DNA of 64,000 bases, taken from assembly GCA_017794925.1 (NCBI GenBank), contig CP051238.1:1163186-1227185 (forward strand), written 5' to 3'. Positions 6,974 to 15,664 of the stretch are shown one piece after another (the stretch's first letter is position 1; the number at the start of each line of letters is the position of its first letter). The stretch is from Aestuariibacter sp. GTDB lineage: Bacteria; Pseudomonadota; Gammaproteobacteria; Enterobacterales; Alteromonadaceae. A model generated the notes under the pieces. That model saw only the letters and a program-made list of their open reading frames with translations. It was not told the origin of the DNA and did no database searches. Position numbers and translations under genes: made by a program.

Positions 6974-7003
6974 AAGCCCGCTCATTCGAAGCGGGTTTTT
7001 TTA
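6974..7003 (+). terminator. Rho-independent terminator of the RND operon
   Basis: Stem CCCGCT (6977-6982) pairs with AGCGGG (6990-6995) across a 7-nt loop, followed by a run of eight T. It begins 18 bp after the pump stop codon. A degenerate copy of this sequence lies at 7904, beyond the toxin-antitoxin genes. Confidence 0.85.
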
Positions 7004-8325: not shown

Positions 8326-10230
8326 GTGTATAAAACTAAACCTTCTAAATACTTAACTCTTTTTTGCTTTTTATTGCTTGTTTCATTATCGAATATCACA
8401 CTTGCCAATCCGATTCAGAGTGAGATTCATGAATATGCAACGCTAGTAGACCCGGATCACACTGATAAATCAGCATTTATTGAAGCAGTAAGAAAAACTA
8501 CATTACTAAGCTCTACAACATCTATTGCCCGTATATTCAGATATCTCTACTTGAAAGACCATCCTGAATTGGCAGAAGAGCTCGGCTTTCCAACTATTGC
8601 TCTCCCAACTGAAAATGACTGGCTGGAATTTCAAGAAAAAGATGTGGTTTATTATGCGGTTACGCGAGCGATTAGCTTTATCTCCGAAGGAAATGCTCTT
8701 GAAAGGCTTCTGACGTTAAAACAACAACAGTTGTTGCGTGGCAATAAAGCAGCAGTAGCACAAGTGGCTTGCGTATTAGCAATTTACTACTTCGATTTTG
8801 CGAAGGACTCCTTAAACGCGATTGCTGAGCTGCTATACGCTCTACCCGAAGTTGCTCCAGCGGATAACGACGTTAGCGACGCGCTTATATATAACAAAGC
8901 ATTTGTACTCTACCATTTGTTTTCCATTTTATATGACTTAGGAGCTTACGAGGCCTCATTCCGGTATGGTCAGGTTTATTTTGAACATATTCGTCAGAGC
9001 CCCGTATATGAACTAGAAAGCTATGATTACTTTTTAATGGTCATGCTTGCTAATCAGTTAGGCAAATTTGATATAGCAATGAGTAATGCAGATGAGTTGT
9101 TACACAAAGCTACCAGCATGAGTCCTTCGGCAGAACTGTTTGCTTTATTGGCCAAAGTCTCCGTTCATGCCAGAAGAAATCAGCCGGGTGATTTAGATAC
9201 CGCTTATGCGTTGTTGGATTTGGTTGACTTAAAGAGTCAGCCTGAGGATTGGAGCGAGGTTGACCAAGCTCGCTTACTCGCAGTAAAAGCCATTCGATTT
9301 GGCTTGCAAGGCGATATGCCGGCGACTGAAGAAAACATTAGCTCACTGAGAGCTCTTATGGTTAGCAATCCAAATGCCTTTAATGGCGTTGATTTCAAAT
9401 ACTTGTCGATTCTTGAAGGGTTTCTGGCGGAATTCAATCATAATTCAGCTATTGCGATAAAAACCAAACTAGAGCGCCTGGAAATAGAGCACGCCTCACT
9501 GGTTAATGCGTTAAATAACAGACTAGATACATTGGGTCATTTAATGCAATCAGATATTGATTTAATAAGATTAGAAAGCTTAAAAGCAAAGGAGTTAGCA
9601 AATCGACAAGCTCTCGAAACCGCTAGGCTCAAATCTATTATCCTTGCCCTTATCATAGCGTTAGTGTCGCTTGTTTCAGCGTGGCTCTTCATACAACGCA
9701 ATAAGGTAAGACGCCTGGCTCACTTTGATCCGTTAACAGGCGCGCCAAACCGACGCTATATGTTTAGCCTTCTCAATAGTGTCTTTAGCAAAACTTCTAG
9801 CGGAAATTGTATAGCACTGATAGATATCGATTACTTTAAAAAAGTTAATGATACCTACGGGCACCAAACGGGTGACGAAGTACTTATAAAATGCAGTGAT
9901 GTTATCAAAAGTCGATTGCGCAAAAGCGATCAATACTGTCGCTATGGTGGTGAAGAATTCTTGTTATTACTCAAAGATACTAATGAAGCCGATGCGAAAG
10001 AGGTGTTGGACGACATACGCGACACATTAGTGCAAATCACCCAATGGAATACCACTTCACAAACTTTTTCAGTTTCTTTTTCATCGGGTTTAGTGGAATT
10101 GGGCCCTTATCAAGATTTAGATGACGCAATTTCGCGTTGTGATGAGCTGCTATATTCTGCAAAAAATAATGGCCGCGGTTGCACCATGTTAAATGATGAC
10201 CGGATATTCAGCTCGGCAGCTGCTGTTTGA
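8326..10230 (+). CDS. Membrane diguanylate cyclase with TPR-like sensor domain
   Basis: 634-residue protein predicted to make cyclic di-GMP. A signal peptide (about residues 1-27) precedes a long helical periplasmic region resembling TPR-like repeats, one membrane helix (about 440-460, SIILALIIALVSLVSAWLF), then a GGDEF domain starting DPLTGAPNRRYM. The active loop is GGEEF (about 541-545), preceded five residues earlier by RKSD, an intact RxxD product-inhibition site. Start is GTG at 8326, with GGGAT upstream. It stands alone between intergenic stretches and looks more AT-rich than the efflux genes. The sensed signal is unknown. Confidence 0.9.
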   Translation: MYKTKPSKYLTLFCFLLLVSLSNITLANPIQSEIHEYATLVDPDHTDKSAFIEAVRKTTLLSSTTSIARIFRYLYLKDHPELAEELGFPTIALPTENDWLEFQEKDVVYYAVTRAISFISEGNALERLLTLKQQQLLRGNKAAVAQVACVLAIYYFDFAKDSLNAIAELLYALPEVAPADNDVSDALIYNKAFVLYHLFSILYDLGAYEASFRYGQVYFEHIRQSPVYELESYDYFLMVMLANQLGKFDIAMSNADELLHKATSMSPSAELFALLAKVSVHARRNQPGDLDTAYALLDLVDLKSQPEDWSEVDQARLLAVKAIRFGLQGDMPATEENISSLRALMVSNPNAFNGVDFKYLSILEGFLAEFNHNSAIAIKTKLERLEIEHASLVNALNNRLDTLGHLMQSDIDLIRLESLKAKELANRQALETARLKSIILALIIALVSLVSAWLFIQRNKVRRLAHFDPLTGAPNRRYMFSLLNSVFSKTSSGNCIALIDIDYFKKVNDTYGHQTGDEVLIKCSDVIKSRLRKSDQYCRYGGEEFLLLLKDTNEADAKEVLDDIRDTLVQITQWNTTSQTFSVSFSSGLVELGPYQDLDDAISRCDELLYSAKNNGRGCTMLNDDRIFSSAAAV

Positions 10231-10420
10231 GACTCAAATGAGCGATAAGCGGAAATAAGATGCATAACGCTTGTTGCTCAAAGCGGAAGTTTATCAACAG
10301 TGAAAATCAAAGTAGACTTTGGTATTTTTCGAGAAGTTACAGAAAACTTTATCTTCAAATCATATTGATAGAGTCTGGGAAGTCCAGTCATTACAAAAAA
10401 CTACTGAAGAAAATTAATCT

Positions 10421-10810
10421 ATGGTTTTAAGTAAAAATTCAAAACAATTAGTTAATGAAGCTAATAAGCAGATTAGAACCTTGGCCATTGATGAGGCTAT
10501 ACAGGCTTATTCATCGGCGTCAGCAATTTTCATAGATATTCGTGAGCAATTTGAACTTGAACAGAGAGGGCGTATTCCTGGATCTATTCATATTCCTCGA
10601 GGTGTTCTGGAGTTTAAAGTGGATCCCGACACCCCGTATTATGATCCGGTGTTTGATAAGCAGGAAGCTATTATTTTGTTTTGCCAAAGTGGTTGGCGTT
10701 CTGCGTTAGCAACATTGGCTTTGCAAAATATGGGCATTCGTTCTGTTGCCCATATTGATGGTGGGTATGCTGCGTGGCTCGATGCGGGTGGTAAAGTAGA
10801 AGGGCGTTAG
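10421..10810 (+). CDS. Single-domain rhodanese-like sulfurtransferase
   Basis: 129-residue rhodanese domain, expected to carry a persulfide on its catalytic cysteine. The active loop CQSGWR (C88) has the Cys-x4-Arg form of sulfurtransferases; the N-terminal [19 protein letters not shown] and C-terminal [14 protein letters not shown] segments are typical for the fold. No signal peptide is evident, so it is probably cytoplasmic. It converges on mnmA with stop codons overlapping by four bases. Because MnmA inserts sulfur into tRNA, a link in sulfur transfer is possible but only inferred from proximity on the opposite strand. Confidence 0.88.
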
Positions 10811-11916
10811 TCGATTACGGCACCGCCCAGACATATTTCTCCGTTGTAAATAACAACAGATTGTCCCGGTGTTACCGCTGAAACCGGTGAATCAAACTCA
10901 ACTGAAATAGTGTCTTTGTTAGCCAAAGTAATATTTGCCGCAATATCTTGCTGCCGGTATCTCGTTTTAACTGTTAAAGGTTGATTCAGGTAACTGTCAG
11001 TGGAGCCACCAATCCAATTCACTTTTGAGGCAGTAAGATGCTGCGTATAAAGTTTAGGATGGTCTTTTCCCTGGGCGACAATCAATCGGTTAGTGCTGAC
11101 TTCTTTGTCCACCACATACCAAGGTTCGTCTGAACTGTTATTGCGTCCCCCAATGCCCAGCCCCTTGCGCTGCCCTAATGTATGAAACATTAAGCCTTGG
11201 TGGCGTCCAATAATGTCGCCATTGGTGTTGACTATTTCGCCAGGTTTAGCAGGTAAAAATTGACCGATAAAGTCGGTAAATTTTCTTTCGCCAATAAAGC
11301 AAATTCCAGTTGAATCCTTTTTCCTTGCCGTTACTAATTGTTGGGTTTCGGCAATATGCCGAACTGTTTGTTTGGACAATTCACCTACGGGAAACAATGC
11401 CTTTGCTATTTGTTCTTGGGCCAGAGCATAAAGAAAATAGCTTTGATCCTTGTTGCTATCGAGCCCTCGCAATAATTGCCAATGGCTATTGTGGAAGCGT
11501 TTTCTTACGTAGTGCCCGGTGGCAATATAATCAGCCTGTAAATCTTCGCAGGCATATTCCAAAAATGCCTTAAATTTGATTTCCTTATTGCACAAAATGT
11601 CCGGATTAGGTGTTCGTCCAATTTTGTATTCATTAAGGAAATGTTCAAACACGTTATCCCAGTATTCCGCTGAAAAATTTATCGCGTGAAGGTGAATTCC
11701 CAATTTGTCACAGACTGCTTGAGCATCGGCGAGATCCTGAGCCGCAGAACAGTATTCTTCGGTATCATCTTCTTCCCAGTTTTTCATAAAAAGGCCTTCA
11801 ACCTGAAAGCCTTGCTGGAGCAAAAGATATGCTGCCACAGAAGAATCTACGCCGCCGGACATCCCTACGATGACTTTTGGCTGATCAGAATTTGTAGCGG
11901 TTAGCGTTCTGTGCAT
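10807..11916 (-). CDS. mnmA: tRNA-specific 2-thiouridylase MnmA
   Basis: Makes the 2-thio group of uridine-34 in tRNA for Lys, Glu and Gln, using ATP to activate the base and a persulfide sulfur. 369 residues, the family's normal length. The PP-loop is [20 protein letters not shown]; the catalytic cysteine lies in [14 protein letters not shown] and the second in [11 protein letters not shown]. Its ATG is one base after the stop of the upstream DUF2938 gene, so the two are translated together. This is not the usual mnmA-hflD-purB setting of gammaproteobacteria, which raises the possibility of relocation or a second copy. Confidence 0.95.
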
Positions 11917-11917
11917 A

Positions 11918-12397
11918 TTAGTAAATTATTGCCAGGCCATATTGGGCAAAGGCAAACACCCCATGGGCGACTATCAGGTAAATGTAAGTCACTAATTTAT
12001 TGGGCAGTAAGCGACCAAAGAAACCGCCCCCTAAGCCAGGCATTAAGATAGCCAGTCCGGCGAATGTACTAAGAATTAAGCCCACAACAATAGTTGGGAG
12101 TAATGTTGGGGCACTGATAAATTCACTGCCGAAGATAATGATAATCAGTGCGGCGTAAGCGATACCTACAACATAATGAAATAGCCAACCAATGATTTTT
12201 TCTAACGTAGAAGGTGGATTGGGGTTGCTATTGTCAACCACAAACTGACCAGTAGGAAATGCCTTTAACCAGCGCCCGACTACTCCCCAGTCAGTTGGTG
12301 GTATGCCTGTTATTTTTTTTACAAGGGTCACCCAAATGTCCAGGGCGATTGTTGAGCCTATGCCTACAAACAGGCAAAACACGACTATGTTTTCCAT
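11918..12397 (-). CDS. DUF2938 family membrane protein
   Basis: 159-residue integral membrane protein with about four hydrophobic segments (residues 5-25, 70-90, 100-120, 138-158). It resembles DUF2938 proteins, with [15 protein letters not shown] near the N-terminus and a glycine-rich [19 protein letters not shown] loop between helices. Function of the family is unknown. It is the first gene of a two-gene leftward unit with mnmA, separated by one base. No signal for a catalytic site is apparent. Confidence 0.75.
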
Positions 12398-12464
12398 ATT
12401 CCTATTGACTCCCAGGATTAATCTCTTCGGTACTAATGAATCAATTCTCTAACTTGAATATCAA

Positions 12465-12486
12465 TTATGGATCAATTAGTCTATAA
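12465..12486. promoter_or_regulatory. TetR operator copy A, upstream of osmC
   Basis: 22-bp imperfect inverted repeat of form TTATGGA-N8-TCTATAA. Its half-sites match those at 13642-13663 and 13695-13716. It lies 63 bp before the osmC start codon. A looser similar sequence (ATGAATCAATT..CTAA) occurs at about 12436-12453. Confidence 0.75.
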
Positions 12487-12549
12487 ATGCTAGTAGTCCT
12501 GTATTAGGGCTGCAAATGTTTTCGTAAACATCATGTTTGGAGTATAAAT

Positions 12550-12969
12550 ATGAACATTAATTTACAGTCAACCTGGACCGGTGGAAAAAGCGGAAAAGGA
12601 GAAGTTAAAAATGACAACTTCAGTGCTACCGTTACTATACCTGCGGTATATGGTGGTCAGGGAACGGACTCCAATCCGAAAGAGTTATTTGTGGCATCAA
12701 CAGCTACCTGTTTTATTTCAACACTGACAGCGATGATTGAAGGCAAAAGGTTGGATATTGTTAGTTTGAGTGTTGATACCGAAGCGAACGCAGGTGATGA
12801 AGACTTTTCGATTACCCACACAGCGAATGTCGTATTACCTCAGGGCGCAAGCGAGAGTGATATTGCTAAAGCTGAAACGCTTGTAGCGTCAGCAGATAAA
12901 ATATGCGCTGTTGGAAATCTAGCGAGAAAAGCGGGCGTAAAAATTGACGCCATTGCAAATATTTCTTAA
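12550..12969 (+). CDS. OsmC/Ohr-family peroxidase-like protein
   Basis: 139-residue OsmC-superfamily protein, a group of cytoplasmic thiol peroxidases that reduce organic hydroperoxides. Two conserved cysteines are present: C54 in ASTATCF and C119 in DKICAVG, placed as expected for the catalytic pair. The N-terminal strand region (STWTGGKSGKGEVK) and NPKELFVAS motif also fit. It belongs more to the YhfA/OsmC-like subgroup than to Ohr, but this is uncertain. It has a copy of the operator shared with the adjacent tetR and MFS genes, so it is likely induced together with them by the TetR ligand. Confidence 0.88.
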   Translation: MNINLQSTWTGGKSGKGEVKNDNFSATVTIPAVYGGQGTDSNPKELFVASTATCFISTLTAMIEGKRLDIVSLSVDTEANAGDEDFSITHTANVVLPQGASESDIAKAETLVASADKICAVGNLARKAGVKIDAIANIS

Positions 12970-12975
12970 TTTCCA

Positions 12976-13011
12976 TGATATTACCTGCGCCGGTGAGCGC
13001 GGGTAATATCA
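12976..13011. terminator. Hairpin between convergent osmC and tetR genes
   Basis: Fifteen-base arms 12976-12990 and 12997-13011 (TGATATTACC-TGCGC / GCGCG-GGTAATATCA) pair with one G-T wobble around a 6-nt loop. There is no strong T-run, but the position exactly between two converging stops makes a bidirectional terminator likely. Confidence 0.7.
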
Positions 13012-13016
13012 GTAAG

Positions 13017-13619
13017 TTAGTTCATTGGACTAGTCCAGTTCATCAATAAATAATCAACAGCAGCCAAAAGTTGTTCTTCAGTCGCGCCATCTTTGGCTTG
13101 GATTGAAATTCCTTTAACAAAGCTATCGAGCATCAGGGTATAACTTTCGGCATCAGTTGTGGCAGCTAATTCACCTCGTTCAATACCGCGCTTTACGCAG
13201 CGAAAAATAGCATCCCGGGTTTGCTTTCTGACTGAGTAGGTGAGTGTTTCTACCTCTTTGTTGTCGTCACAACAATTCATTCCGGATAGTACTGCCATGC
13301 ATCCTTGTGGTGAGGTGGAAGAGGTTTGCACTGTTACGGTATGTCTTAACATGCTTTGAATCGCTTGTTTAGGAGATTTAGAGCTATCGTCCAGGTACGA
13401 AGTTACTTCACCACAGGTATCTGTGTAGCGTTTTAAGCACTCTTCATAAAGCGCCTTCTTCGATCCAAAGGCAGCATAAAAACTCGCTGATGATAGATTA
13501 AGTACAGTACGCAAATCTGCTAAAGATGTACTTTCGAAGCCTTTTTCCCAAAATGTATTCATTGCTGTTTCAATCGCTTTCTCGCGGTCAAACTCTCTTG
13601 GACGGCCGGTTCTCGCCAT
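13017..13619 (-). CDS. TetR-family repressor of the osmC/MFS/thioredoxin group
   Basis: About 200 residues. The N-terminus MARTGRPREFDREKAIETAM and helix-turn-helix (TSLADLRTVLNLSSASFYAAF) are of the YxaF/LmrA/AcrR-like TetR subgroup, which often controls responses to electrophiles or quinones. Start at 13619 is preferred since GGAGG lies 7 bases upstream; the ATG at 13625 is too close to it. Cysteines in SGMNCCDDN of the ligand domain might sense thiol-reactive compounds, which is inference. Matching operators lie in its own promoter, in the MFS promoter and upstream of osmC, so it probably represses all three. Confidence 0.9.
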   Translation of the reverse strand: MARTGRPREFDREKAIETAMNTFWEKGFESTSLADLRTVLNLSSASFYAAFGSKKALYEECLKRYTDTCGEVTSYLDDSSKSPKQAIQSMLRHTVTVQTSSTSPQGCMAVLSGMNCCDDNKEVETLTYSVRKQTRDAIFRCVKRGIERGELAATTDAESYTLMLDSFVKGISIQAKDGATEEQLLAAVDYLLMNWTSPMN

Positions 13620-13641
13620 ATTCATTCCTCCAAAACATATA

Positions 13642-13663
13642 TTATAGATTAATCATTCCATAA
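13642..13663 (-). promoter_or_regulatory. TetR operator copy C over the tetR promoter
   Basis: On the minus strand this reads TTATGGA-N8-TCTATAA. Its right half overlaps a perfect -10 TATAAT of the leftward tetR promoter, so binding would give autorepression. Confidence 0.75.
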
Positions 13664-13667
13664 AAGT

Positions 13668-13716
13668 TTGACAAGTTTGTTCTGCTCCTTTAATTTATGG
13701 ATCAATCGTTCTATAA
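13668..13716 (+). promoter_or_regulatory. MFS promoter with TetR operator copy B
   Basis: A -35 TTGACA (13668-13673) and -10 TAATTT (13691-13696) are 17 bp apart. The operator TTATGGA-N8-TCTATAA (13695-13716) starts at the end of the -10 and covers the expected transcription start, a classic repression position. Confidence 0.75.
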
Positions 13717-13731
13717 GTGAGTTTTACTATT

Positions 13732-14931
13732 ATGCCAATTGCTTTATACGCACTTGCCGCAGCTTCTTTTGCCATAGGTATGGCGGAATTTGTTGTGGTA
13801 GGTATTTTGCCCGCTATTGCCAGAGACATGAGTGTCGACATACCAACAGCGGGTCAACTTGTTTCTTTGTACGCCCTTGGTGTGGCGTTGGCTGCACCTT
13901 TGCTTACTGCCGCTACCGGAAGAATTGATCGCAGAAAGTTATCTGTAGGGTTAATGATCGCCTTTGTTGCGGCTAATTTAATTGCCTGGCAAGCAAGCAG
14001 TTACCCCATGTTGTTGGTAGGTCGTGTACTCGCTGGCATGGTTCAGGGGGTGTTTTATTCTATGGCCACGGTACTGGCTGCCAATTTAGTTAGTAAAGAA
14101 AAGTCAGGGCAAGCGATTGCGCTGGTGTTCATGGGATTAACGGTTGCGTTAGTGTCCGGTGTGCCTTTGGGAACCTTTATTTCGGACCTGTTTGGATGGC
14201 GAGCTACCTTTCTGTTTATCAGTGTACTAGGGCTAGCTTCAGCAATCGCTCAGTGGATGTTACTGCCGAAAGTAATTGAGCGTCCAGAGCCAGCAAAGTT
14301 GCACCAACAATTAAGTGTGGTCTTGGTGCCGCGCATGATGTTGGTATTTTTAATCACCTGTTTAAGTTATGGCGGTGCGTTTATTGCCTTTACTTATTTG
14401 TCTGAAATTCTGCAAAAAGTAACCGGATTTTCGGTTAGCACAGTCAGTATGGTGTTAATTCTTTATGGGGCTGCGGTAACTATGGGCAATATTTATTGCG
14501 CTAAATATGCGGGACGTAAAGGTGCAATTAAAGCGATGGTGGTGATGTTCGCTGTGCTGACCGTTATTTTGGCGCTAATCGAACCTGTCGCCGCTAATCC
14601 CTATTTAATGGTGCCACTCATTATGGTGTGGGGAGCCATGGCGTTTGGCAGTATTCCCGTGCTTCAGCTTTATGTTGTGCAGCAAGCTGAAAAGCATGCG
14701 CCACGCTCTGTTGATGCCGCTTCTGGCATGAACATTTCTGCCTTCAATGCTGGCATTGCCCTAGGTGCCTGGTTAGGTGGGATAGTGGTTGCCAACTACG
14801 GTCTACTCGCTACCGGAAGTGCTGCGGCGGTAGTAGTTGCGTTCAGTATCTTACTGGTTTTACTAAGTGGGTATTTCGATAAAAAGCATACCCAAACTAC
14901 ACAAGAACAATCCTTAACTGATGTTGCCTGA
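13732..14931 (+). CDS. MFS transporter, DHA1/AraJ-like exporter
   Basis: Twelve-helix major facilitator of about 399 residues, similar to the NepI/SotB/YdhP/AraJ exporters of sugars, purine nucleosides or drugs. The first helix carries AIGMAEFVVVGILPAIA, and the loop 2-3 motif A region reads LLTAATGRIDRRKL. The ATG at 13732 is chosen because an in-frame GTG at 13717 directly abuts the operator and would leave almost no leader. It is driven by a TetR-controlled promoter and followed 32 bp later by a thioredoxin gene. Substrate unknown; the oxidative-stress company suggests export of a toxic electrophile or metabolite. Confidence 0.88.
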   Translation: MPIALYALAAASFAIGMAEFVVVGILPAIARDMSVDIPTAGQLVSLYALGVALAAPLLTAATGRIDRRKLSVGLMIAFVAANLIAWQASSYPMLLVGRVLAGMVQGVFYSMATVLAANLVSKEKSGQAIALVFMGLTVALVSGVPLGTFISDLFGWRATFLFISVLGLASAIAQWMLLPKVIERPEPAKLHQQLSVVLVPRMMLVFLITCLSYGGAFIAFTYLSEILQKVTGFSVSTVSMVLILYGAAVTMGNIYCAKYAGRKGAIKAMVVMFAVLTVILALIEPVAANPYLMVPLIMVWGAMAFGSIPVLQLYVVQQAEKHAPRSVDAASGMNISAFNAGIALGAWLGGIVVANYGLLATGSAAAVVVAFSILLVLLSGYFDKKHTQTTQEQSLTDVA

Positions 14932-14963
14932 ACAACCAGTATTTCAAATATTAAGAGGTAATT

Positions 14964-15284
14964 ATGTCTGTTAGACCAATCACAATTGATAACTTTACTA
15001 CCCTAACCAATGAACCTGGAGTGAAACTGTTGCGTTTCTGGGCTGAATGGTGTGCGCCATGTATGATGATGGCACCCATGTATAAAAATGCCGCAGAAGA
15101 TTTAAAAGATAGTGCGTTACTTGGTGAAGTTGATGTCGTACTTCAACCTGAACTAGCCAATATGCACGGTATCCGCAGCATTCCAACTGTTGTCGTTTAC
15201 AAAGACGGTGAAATTGTTGATAGGATTTCAGGAGTAATGAATGAGCGAGAATTAGCGTCGCTTGTTGCAAGAGTGCAGGAGTAA
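14964..15284 (+). CDS. Thioredoxin-family protein with WCAPC active site
   Basis: 106-residue thioredoxin fold protein, probably a cytoplasmic disulfide reductant. The active site is FWAEWCAPC (C30, C33), differing from the canonical WCGPC by alanine for glycine, which is expected to shift redox potential; the cis-proline loop is IRSIPTVVVYKDGE. Ribosome site AAGAGG precedes the ATG. It is the second gene of the MFS transcription unit, ending at a strong hairpin, so it should be induced with the exporter. It is not the housekeeping trxA by context. Confidence 0.88.
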   Translation: MSVRPITIDNFTTLTNEPGVKLLRFWAEWCAPCMMMAPMYKNAAEDLKDSALLGEVDVVLQPELANMHGIRSIPTVVVYKDGEIVDRISGVMNERELASLVARVQE

Positions 15285-15293
15285 AGTACAGTT

Positions 15294-15319
15294 AAGGGCC
15301 AGTATCACTACTGGCCCTT
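15294..15319 (+). terminator. Terminator after the thioredoxin gene
   Basis: Perfect stem AAGGGCCAGTA / TACTGGCCCTT with a TCAC loop, followed by TTAATTG. It begins 10 bp after the stop codon and closes the MFS-thioredoxin unit. Confidence 0.85.
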
Positions 15320-15664
15320 TAATTGCGGCTAACCAAATATGATAACGTCCAATGTTTCAATTTAAGACTACCTATTCATAGTCCGCTCGCGACGCAAACT
15401 AATCGGATCAAAATTAATGTTTAATGTCCGCTTCTGACCAATAGCCGCCGTCTACAATGTCGTTTATTGGTTGAGTAGCTCACGTTATTAATATGCTCAA
15501 TACTCTTCTTTCCTCAGCTATCTAATCCATTGGTAGCAAATACTCTAAACCAGATCAATATTCGGTCATTTCAGCCTGTTCTGTGTTGAGTAATGTGGCA
15601 TCATTACTGTCAGTAAATTCAAAGTGAATCGGTGTTGGAAATACCGATAACAGGGAGCACAGCG
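15320..15664. other. Intergenic stretch upstream of the acetyl-CoA hydrolase operon
   Basis: About 345 bp with no convincing gene. It contains a perfect inverted repeat AGTAATG-TGGCAT-CATTACT at 15589-15608, 57 bp before the operon start, which may be a regulator site or small hairpin in the leader. No strong sigma-70 promoter could be fixed. Confidence 0.5.

Follow-up and report, generated by a model that had tools for sequence, protein, structure and literature searches.

Organization of the locus

The window, a 64,000-nucleotide stretch of the 4,744,784-bp genome of Aestuariibacter sp. (contig CP051238.1, positions 1,163,186 to 1,227,185), contains a unit of seven genes (10236-15319, 5.08 kb, no strand assigned), among them a gene for a CifR-like TetR repressor, and three matching sites that are very probably the operators of this repressor. 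A preliminary description of the region had proposed a small regulon of osmC, tetR, an MFS gene and a thioredoxin gene. These genes are all there, but the picture was incomplete, as the apparently mobile unit also carries genes for a DUF2938 membrane protein, a second MnmA and a rhodanese.

The product of tetR (13017-13619, minus strand) scored above the cut-offs of both TetR domain models, PF00440 (38.7 bits; cut-off, 24) and PF16925 (28.9 bits; cut-off, 27), and its structural model is all-helical, with nine helices and a mean predicted local distance difference test score (pLDDT) of 81.9. CifR is the closest characterized relative with a solved structure (6nsn, 124.9 bits, E = 3.3e-35; profile E = 1.7e-61); among the other PDB matches, the uncharacterized protein 2i10 reached 104.3 bits and the next chain 38.4 bits. 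On the plus strand lies the gene for an MFS exporter of the AraJ or Cmx/CmrA type (13732-14931; PF07690, E = 2.7e-46), which falls short of the equivalog cut-off for the chloramphenicol exporters Cmx/CmrA (NF033135, 254.2 bits; cut-off, 400), followed by a thioredoxin gene, trx, whose product has a WCAPC motif (14964-15284, plus strand; PF00085, E = 2.3e-22). Since the unit has no trxB, this thioredoxin would rely on a reductase encoded elsewhere. A terminator-like hairpin (15294-15319, plus strand), read in the sequence and not listed by the scanner, closes both MFS-trx and the unit.

To the left of tetR, osmC (12550-12969, plus strand) encodes an OsmC/Ohr-family protein (PF02566, E = 2.1e-12) in which both redox-active, catalytic cysteines align with those of Ohr (1usp). 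It falls into none of the named subfamilies (Ohr, OsmC, SACOL1771), the best score being 83.1 bits for TIGR03563 (cut-off, 166.15). Divergent from osmC is the DUF2938 gene (11918-12397, minus strand; PF11158, E = 1e-35), whose product is modeled with long helices at residues 4-30, 64-89, 99-116 and 134-158 (mean pLDDT, 85.4). A fold comparison among the chains ranked by Foldseek yielded Z scores of at most 3.9 and thus no usable relative, which has no bearing on novelty. The second mnmA (10807-11916, minus strand) encodes a tRNA 2-thiouridine synthase that scores above the full-length equivalog cut-off (TIGR00420, 484.7 bits; cut-off, 236.95), the model covering residues 14-368, and its 3' end overlaps by four bases, on opposite strands, the gene for a single-domain, sulfurtransferase-like rhodanese (10421-10810, plus strand; PF00581, E = 3.6e-18). 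As a single base separates the end of the DUF2938 gene from the first mnmA ATG on the same strand, both in the window and in Alteromonadaceae bacterium XY-R5, the two genes probably form one transcript.

Three operators overlap promoter-like elements

The three sites match the palindromic pattern TTATRGANNNATNNNTCYATAA and are present with the coordinates and form given in the preliminary description. Operator 1 (12465-12486, no strand assigned; TTATGGATCAATTAGTCTATAA) is located between osmC and DUF2938-mnmA and thus, as DUF2938 diverges from osmC, between two divergent units. Operator 2 (13642-13663; TTATGGAATGATTAATCTATAA), exact on the minus strand, lies over the -10 element of tetR, and operator 3 (13695-13716, no strand assigned; TTATGGATCAATCGTTCTATAA), 53 bp from operator 2, borders the MFS -10 element on its downstream side. 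With up to two mismatches, the window yielded six strand-matches, all at these three places, whereas 100 dinucleotide shuffles of the window gave a mean of 0.54 (largest, 4). The sites were also the sole family of direct repeats of at least 14 nucleotides reported within 10200-15450.

A scan of the genome, which the preliminary description had called for, returned these three sites as the only perfect matches, with 0.004 exact matches expected per genome at equal base frequencies. When up to two mismatches were allowed, six places were found, against seven with a reversed control pattern, so the operators stand out as exact sites only. In a scoring matrix trained on the three window operators alone (n = 3), these score 29.7 to 29.8 bits and the next best sites in the window 15.9 and 15.2 bits. 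The remaining genomic sites with one or two mismatches were considered as further regulon members and rejected, as they score 16.8 to 18.0 bits and are no commoner than matches to the reversed control. One of them (G000:C1:1934542-1934563, or 1501-1522 of stretch L004), a palindrome with a single mismatch that scores 17.3 bits and is at chance level, extends over the start of an open reading frame (ORF) of 242 amino acids whose product looks like a membrane protein, presumably a YhhQ-type queuosine-precursor transporter.

Each operator coincides with a promoter-like element. The osmC promoter (TTGAAT-N17-TAGTCT, 12454-12482, plus strand) has its -10 element inside operator 1, a geometry also seen in L036-L038, and the tetR promoter (TTGTCA-N17-TAATCT, 13646-13674, minus strand) has its -10 element under operator 2. 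In the MFS promoter (TTGACA-N17-TAATTT, 13668-13696, plus strand), operator 3 begins on the last two bases, in agreement with the earlier placement of an operator right after the MFS -10 element. The -35 elements of the tetR and MFS promoters overlap on opposite strands. All seven tetR and osmC promoters compared (two in the window and the five Salinicola promoters printed) have a TTGaCA-like element exactly 17 bp before an in-operator TA(A/G)TCT, and the trx promoter of G365, a genome met in the search of the Salinicola family, reads TTGACA-N17-TATCTT and is followed by an operator. The -10 element of the Salinicola MFS promoters is ambiguous, since in the two printed examples N17 yields CTCAAA. 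A consensus promoter scanner listed none of the osmC, tetR and MFS promoters, so their positions rest on conservation; they were read with a loose TTG pattern that gave three further hits without a sensible -10 element.

The operators are conserved in related loci

The window TetR is 98% identical to its counterpart in XY-R5, 59% identical to those of three Salinicola copies and 54% identical to that of G365; the family search from which the latter came gave 38 TetR matches in 35 of 250 genomes, with wider stretches fetched for 18. XY-R5 holds all three sites, one with a single mismatch, and no other exact match among those listed genome-wide. Upstream of osmC in the three Salinicola copies, the best matrix scores are 28.9, 21.0 and 21.5 bits, and the tetR/MFS intervals hold pairs of sites 55 bp apart (17.3 and 13.6, 18.6 and 13.6, and 18.6 and 13.6 bits). 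In G365, the interval upstream of trx-trxB-tetR holds sites of 27.3 and 19.0 bits with a spacing of 53 bp. In none of 1,000 shuffles of each of the seven Salinicola and G365 intervals was the best score reached, and the second score in the four two-site intervals was reached in 0, 0, 1 and 0 of 1,000. The preliminary description had named absence of the motif from orthologous loci as an observation that would speak against it; instead, the motif is kept there.

The spacing of 53 bp is also found in XY-R5 and L078. Among 21 more distant TetR loci, several of them near-copies and with lower scores that lack a shuffle comparison, the top two sites upstream of tetR are exactly 53 bp apart in eight and 50 to 59 bp apart in seven, while six have no such pair. 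These loci mostly have another half-site (e.g., TGTAT), but TGGAT is retained on one or both sides in L077 and L076. Both the divergent layout with two sites and the general type of site thus look like family traits, and the full TTATRGAT...TCYATAA form of the predicted operator is strongest in the module-linked set.

Similar sites were observed at other TetR genes. In L034 (genome G049), palindromes at 1401-1422 and 2063-2084, with one and three mismatches, flank the gene for a TetR of 27% identity. In the Thioclava stretch L097, a site of 17.6 bits (8607-8628) is found in the interval separating a dehydrogenase gene from the gene for another TetR.

Such palindromes beside other TetR genes, and the fact that weaker matches in the source genome are no more numerous than those to the reversed pattern, are what one would expect if the three repeats were operators of a different regulator or had arisen by chance. 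We consider this highly improbable, given that the exact sites in the genome occur only beside this tetR and its neighbors and that the sites follow tetR into Salinicola and G365. The proposal that one repressor controls the region is supported for osmC, tetR and MFS-trx, which have operators in front of them that are kept in orthologous loci, but it had missed the DUF2938-mnmA side of operator 1.

The unit is shared with XY-R5 and apparently transferable

A blastn comparison of the window with 19 kb of XY-R5 gave, at E = 1e-10, a single alignment spanning 10236-15319 with 90.3% identity, all weaker matches being 15 to 27 bases long. Only the seven genes of the unit had counterparts among the XY-R5 ORFs of at least 100 amino acids, so the flanks are unrelated. 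The rhodanese is 87% identical between the two genomes, and the terminal hairpin ends the unit in XY-R5 as well, with a changed loop. The unit has a G+C content of 0.43 and the rest of the window one of 0.488, and no direct repeats flanking the unit were reported within 10200-15450. Two observations concern its left side: the stretch of low G+C content already starts near 7000 and is thus wider than the shared unit, and the gene for a GGDEF protein just left of the unit (8326-10230; G+C, 0.408) is not in the XY-R5 flank.

No TetR match at E = 1e-10 in 35 same-genus genomes exceeds 39% identity, a value that applies to 67 residues, and in 274 genomes of the class there are, besides the source, two at E = 1e-30 (33 and 35%). 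The source genome has a native mnmA (G000:C1:3478775-3479863) that is 66% identical to the copy in the unit; with the 29 copies from the same genus that were compared, its identity is 84 to 91% (34 other genomes had a match). XY-R5 likewise has two mnmA genes, its native copy being 83% identical to the native copy of the source genome; a single mnmA match was obtained in G365 and in each of the Salinicola genomes. Judged from these identities, the mnmA of the unit is a xenologous second copy. A distant DNA search of plasmids with the whole unit gave 41 records, each of which covers less than 80% of the query, and the 10 listed cover part of mnmA only. Taken together, the unit is apparently a horizontally transferable cassette.

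A redox-export module with exchangeable regulators

Parts of the unit recur in other lineages. Three copies of a set comprising tetR, MFS, trx, trxB, osmC and DUF2938 genes are present in 2 of 18 Salinicola genomes, the MFS, thioredoxin, OsmC and DUF2938 proteins being 50 to 71% identical to those of the window; the corresponding values for Salipiger are 48 to 55%. There, a plasmid carries genes for MFS, LysR, TrxB (57% identical to that of Salinicola), thioredoxin, OsmC, GrxC and DUF2938, and in the Thioclava stretch L149, where the annotated LysR is a short fragment, the set runs from trxB to DUF2938. Like the window, this LysR-linked plasmid set of Salipiger and Thioclava contains the same structural genes (45 to 55% identity); unlike the window, it has LysR in place of TetR and additionally trxB (absent in L097) and a glutaredoxin gene, and no mnmA or rhodanese gene among its annotated neighbors. 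Since the module recurs under TetR in Salinicola and beside LysR on Rhodobacterales plasmids, its genes belong together whatever the regulator, and by this comparison MFS-trx-(trxB)-osmC-(grx)-DUF2938 is a genuine module with an exchangeable regulator. G365 has tetR-trxB-trx with a further thioredoxin gene adjoining; within 10 kb, nothing matched MFS, OsmC or DUF2938.

Outside these sets, the individual genes occur in other company. MFS homologs of 42 to 52% identity are found in 4 of 274 genomes of the source's class, besides the source itself, and in 8 of 289 genomes of the class of G335; with a cut-off of E = 1e-4, the 12 stretches around them (6.8 to 10 kb) gave no match to OsmC, thioredoxin, TrxB, glutaredoxin or DUF2938, five having LysR matches (23 to 39%) and one a TetR match of 22%. 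DUF2938 matches occur in 6 of 258 genomes besides the source and in 13 of 279 (part of these were used, for alignment only) and in 53 plasmid records. In the eight plasmid stretches looked at, DUF2938 genes of 29 to 38% identity from Microvirga, two Pantoea, Gluconobacter and Tardibacter have other contexts, with an MFS gene directly before DUF2938 in Tardibacter. OsmC matches at E = 1e-20 were obtained in 11 plasmid records, and in five of these the gene was viewed: the module is present in Salipiger and Thioclava and not in Priestia, Peribacillus and Mesobacillus, a thioredoxin gene adjoining osmC in Peribacillus. A TetR match is present in 531 plasmid records, of which three were looked at, and five phage records hold TetR homologs of at most 36% identity.

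Repressor cysteines and a model for thiol-stress defense

Cys107 of the window TetR is present in all 14 aligned TetRs. The six module-linked TetRs all have Cys61, Cys69, Cys116 and Cys141 as well, whereas these occur in one, none, three and six, respectively, of the eight others; the alignment comprises 14 chosen TetRs, several of them near-copies, with AltR, NemR and CifR left out. The clade of module TetRs has a tree support of 90/92 and is not starred. In one deposited CifR construct (6nsm), the residue aligned with Cys107 is a serine. In two related TetR repressors a cysteine acts as the sensing switch, Cys100 in AltR (PMC13178969) and Cys106 in NemR (PMC7464077).

Taking gene content and conserved cysteines together, we infer that the inducer is most likely a thiol-reactive compound, and we regard it as probable that the unit is a self-contained, transferable thiol-stress cassette in which a cysteine-sensing TetR controls the export of such a compound and the repair of its damage. 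In this scenario, a dimer of the CifR-like TetR would at rest occupy three 22-bp operators: two, 53 bp apart, with the overlapping -35 elements of the divergent promoters for tetR and MFS-trx between them, and a third that covers the osmC -10 element upstream of the divergent DUF2938-mnmA pair, such that repression would result from occlusion of the -10 and start regions at three promoters. A thiol-reactive compound (an electrophile, a disulfide-forming agent or a thiosulfinate-like molecule) would then modify Cys107, perhaps also Cys61, Cys69, Cys116 and Cys141, and the repressor would leave the DNA. Once derepressed, the MFS protein would export the compound, thioredoxin would reduce mixed disulfides, possibly also feeding the OsmC/Ohr peroxidase, and OsmC would remove a peroxide or adduct. 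The DUF2938 membrane protein would be made too and, possibly, the spare tRNA thiolase.

The last step lends itself to a speculative extension, which we consider doubtful at best: by switching on DUF2938-mnmA, the same repressor would add target replacement to the cassette, providing a second, perhaps poison-resistant tRNA thiolase with the rhodanese as its sulfur donor. Such a replacement would help because the compound would kill native sulfur-relay enzymes, which work via reactive cysteines and persulfides.

Several observations weigh against the proposed thiol-stress cassette or parts of it. Conserved cysteines are no proof of thiol sensing, since those of CssR, another stress-related TetR, lack redox activity (PMC8176726). 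Residues 109-116 of the TetR model, right after Cys107, have pLDDT values below 50, so the model shows nothing of the proposed switch. On the DUF2938 side of operator 1, no promoter element was found with the same TTG pattern. The Salinicola tetR/MFS operators are degenerate (17 to 19 and 13.6 bits), and the type of site is not private to this TetR, since palindromes adjoin other TetR genes in L034, L077, L076 and L097. The Thioclava stretch L097, with genes for MFS, LysR, thioredoxin, OsmC and GrxC, has the module without trxB and DUF2938. Finally, the TetR homologs of 40 to 46% identity, which come from Pantoea, Agrobacterium and the search of the Salinicola family, mostly have an MFS gene and nothing else of the module next to them, the product of which is only 28 to 31% identical to the window MFS protein (37% for one 127-amino-acid piece), and with such neighbors a plain drug sensor fits equally well. 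The Komagataeibacter homolog (44%) has no MFS match, and the seven homologs at 36 to 37% lack an MFS match next to tetR.

These neighborhoods are one reason to weigh a classical multidrug TetR-MFS pair, in which the exported drug would bind the repressor noncovalently and thioredoxin, OsmC and the other products would serve general damage control. CssR indeed switches by ligand rather than by thiol (PMC8176726), and the window MFS protein is nearest to the Cmx/CmrA chloramphenicol exporters and AraJ, though under the family cut-offs. Against a drug sensor stand five cysteines that all module-linked TetRs share, two of them being nearly confined to this group, and thiol-redox genes that recur as a unit even beside LysR, and we consider the drug-pair explanation unlikely, although the most plausible of the alternatives.

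Comparison with known systems

TetR-controlled sets for defense against thiol-reactive compounds, electrophiles or oxidants are a known kind (PMC7119367, PMC13178969, PMC12306174, PMC8417944, PMC9342713, PMC8244358, PMC4204640). The statement in the preliminary description that no named system has exactly this makeup is a fair one: this combination of genes was not described in the literature searched, which covers few subscription journals.

The cif operon of Pseudomonas aeruginosa has the closest solved regulator, CifR, with a cysteine aligned with Cys107. CifR reportedly has two binding sites, going by the title of Ballok 2012. Its gene is divergent from an operon with an MFS gene (PMC8244358), as in the unit described here, which differs in having a third operator at osmC and genes for thioredoxin, OsmC, DUF2938 and MnmA instead of the epoxide hydrolase gene and morB. 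An assignment of the unit as a cif operon was rejected, as neither the epoxide hydrolase Cif nor MorB was found by Pfam and NCBIfam among the seven gene products. The same absence speaks against the idea of a CifR-like response in which an epoxide, or a lipid or other organic hydroperoxide, would be the inducer and OsmC the main detoxifier. In favor of it, CifR is released by epoxides (PMC8244358), no other characterized solved relative comes near it in similarity, and OsmC retains both catalytic cysteines; yet the thioredoxin, thioredoxin reductase and glutaredoxin genes of the relatives suggest disulfides as the problem to be solved, and we judge an epoxide or hydroperoxide inducer to be distinctly unlikely.

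The alt and allicin-tolerance clusters of Pantoea ananatis and Pseudomonas fluorescens PfAR-1 are likewise transferable thiol-defense sets with a TetR gene, those of PfAR-1 also including trx and osmC (PMC7119367). A sensing cysteine and repression via inverted-repeat operators are reported for AltR (PMC13178969); its box, CAATCTAC-N6-GTAGATTG, differs from the window operator, and it is described as NemR-related, whereas the window TetR is CifR-like. The window unit has no DsbA-like, AhpD-like, Old Yellow Enzyme, KefFC or Gor gene. As the alt clusters are described with altC (DsbA-like) and altE (carboxymuconolactone decarboxylase/AhpD-like) (PMC8417944), and Pfam and NCBIfam detected neither type among the seven genes, the unit was not classified as an alt cluster.

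In Escherichia coli, the cysteine-switched TetR NemR controls electrophile defense through nemRA-gloA (PMC7464077), much as is proposed here; NemR has detectable homology to the window TetR (4yze, E = 1.3e-10) but is far more distant than CifR, and its targets differ. DitR of Stenotrophomonas maltophilia, a TetR with two sensing cysteines, represses the MFS operon mfsBC, which protects from diamide, through several boxes over the promoter, like those in the window (PMC9342713). Unlike the window TetR, DitR is nearest to TtgW and has a CATAC-N5-GTATG box, and the accessible portion of that paper reports no thioredoxin or OsmC gene. An Acidovorax oxidative-stress island under a TetR was rejected as a counterpart, as it controls pqiAA'B and is unrelated in content (PMC4204640).

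What emerges is a regulon with predicted operators, compact enough for experimental study, and a conserved redox-export module that occurs together with either TetR or LysR. DUF2938, which is almost without literature in the texts searched (a single paper uses the name), is thereby placed in a concrete thiol-stress context, and the spare mnmA in a mobile unit raises the idea that thiol-reactive antibiotics may target tRNA thiolation. Should the inducer turn out to be a natural product, the repressor would lend itself readily to use as a biosensor for that compound.

Two plasmid loci are of interest in their own right. On a Priestia megaterium plasmid (L098, 6001-12114), genes for OsmC, TetR, thioredoxin, carboxymuconolactone decarboxylase, DsbA and a further OsmC lie close together, an arrangement that resembles a thiosulfinate cluster of the alt type, in this case from a Gram-positive bacterium. 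On pTML1 of Pseudoalteromonas sp. SANK 73390 (L148), a DUF2938 gene of 32 to 35% identity (8974-9492) is located among annotated nonribosomal peptide synthetase, P450 and acyl-CoA synthetase genes; this plasmid presumably directs the synthesis of the dithiolopyrrolone-containing antibiotic thiomarinol, which would be another thiol-chemistry context.

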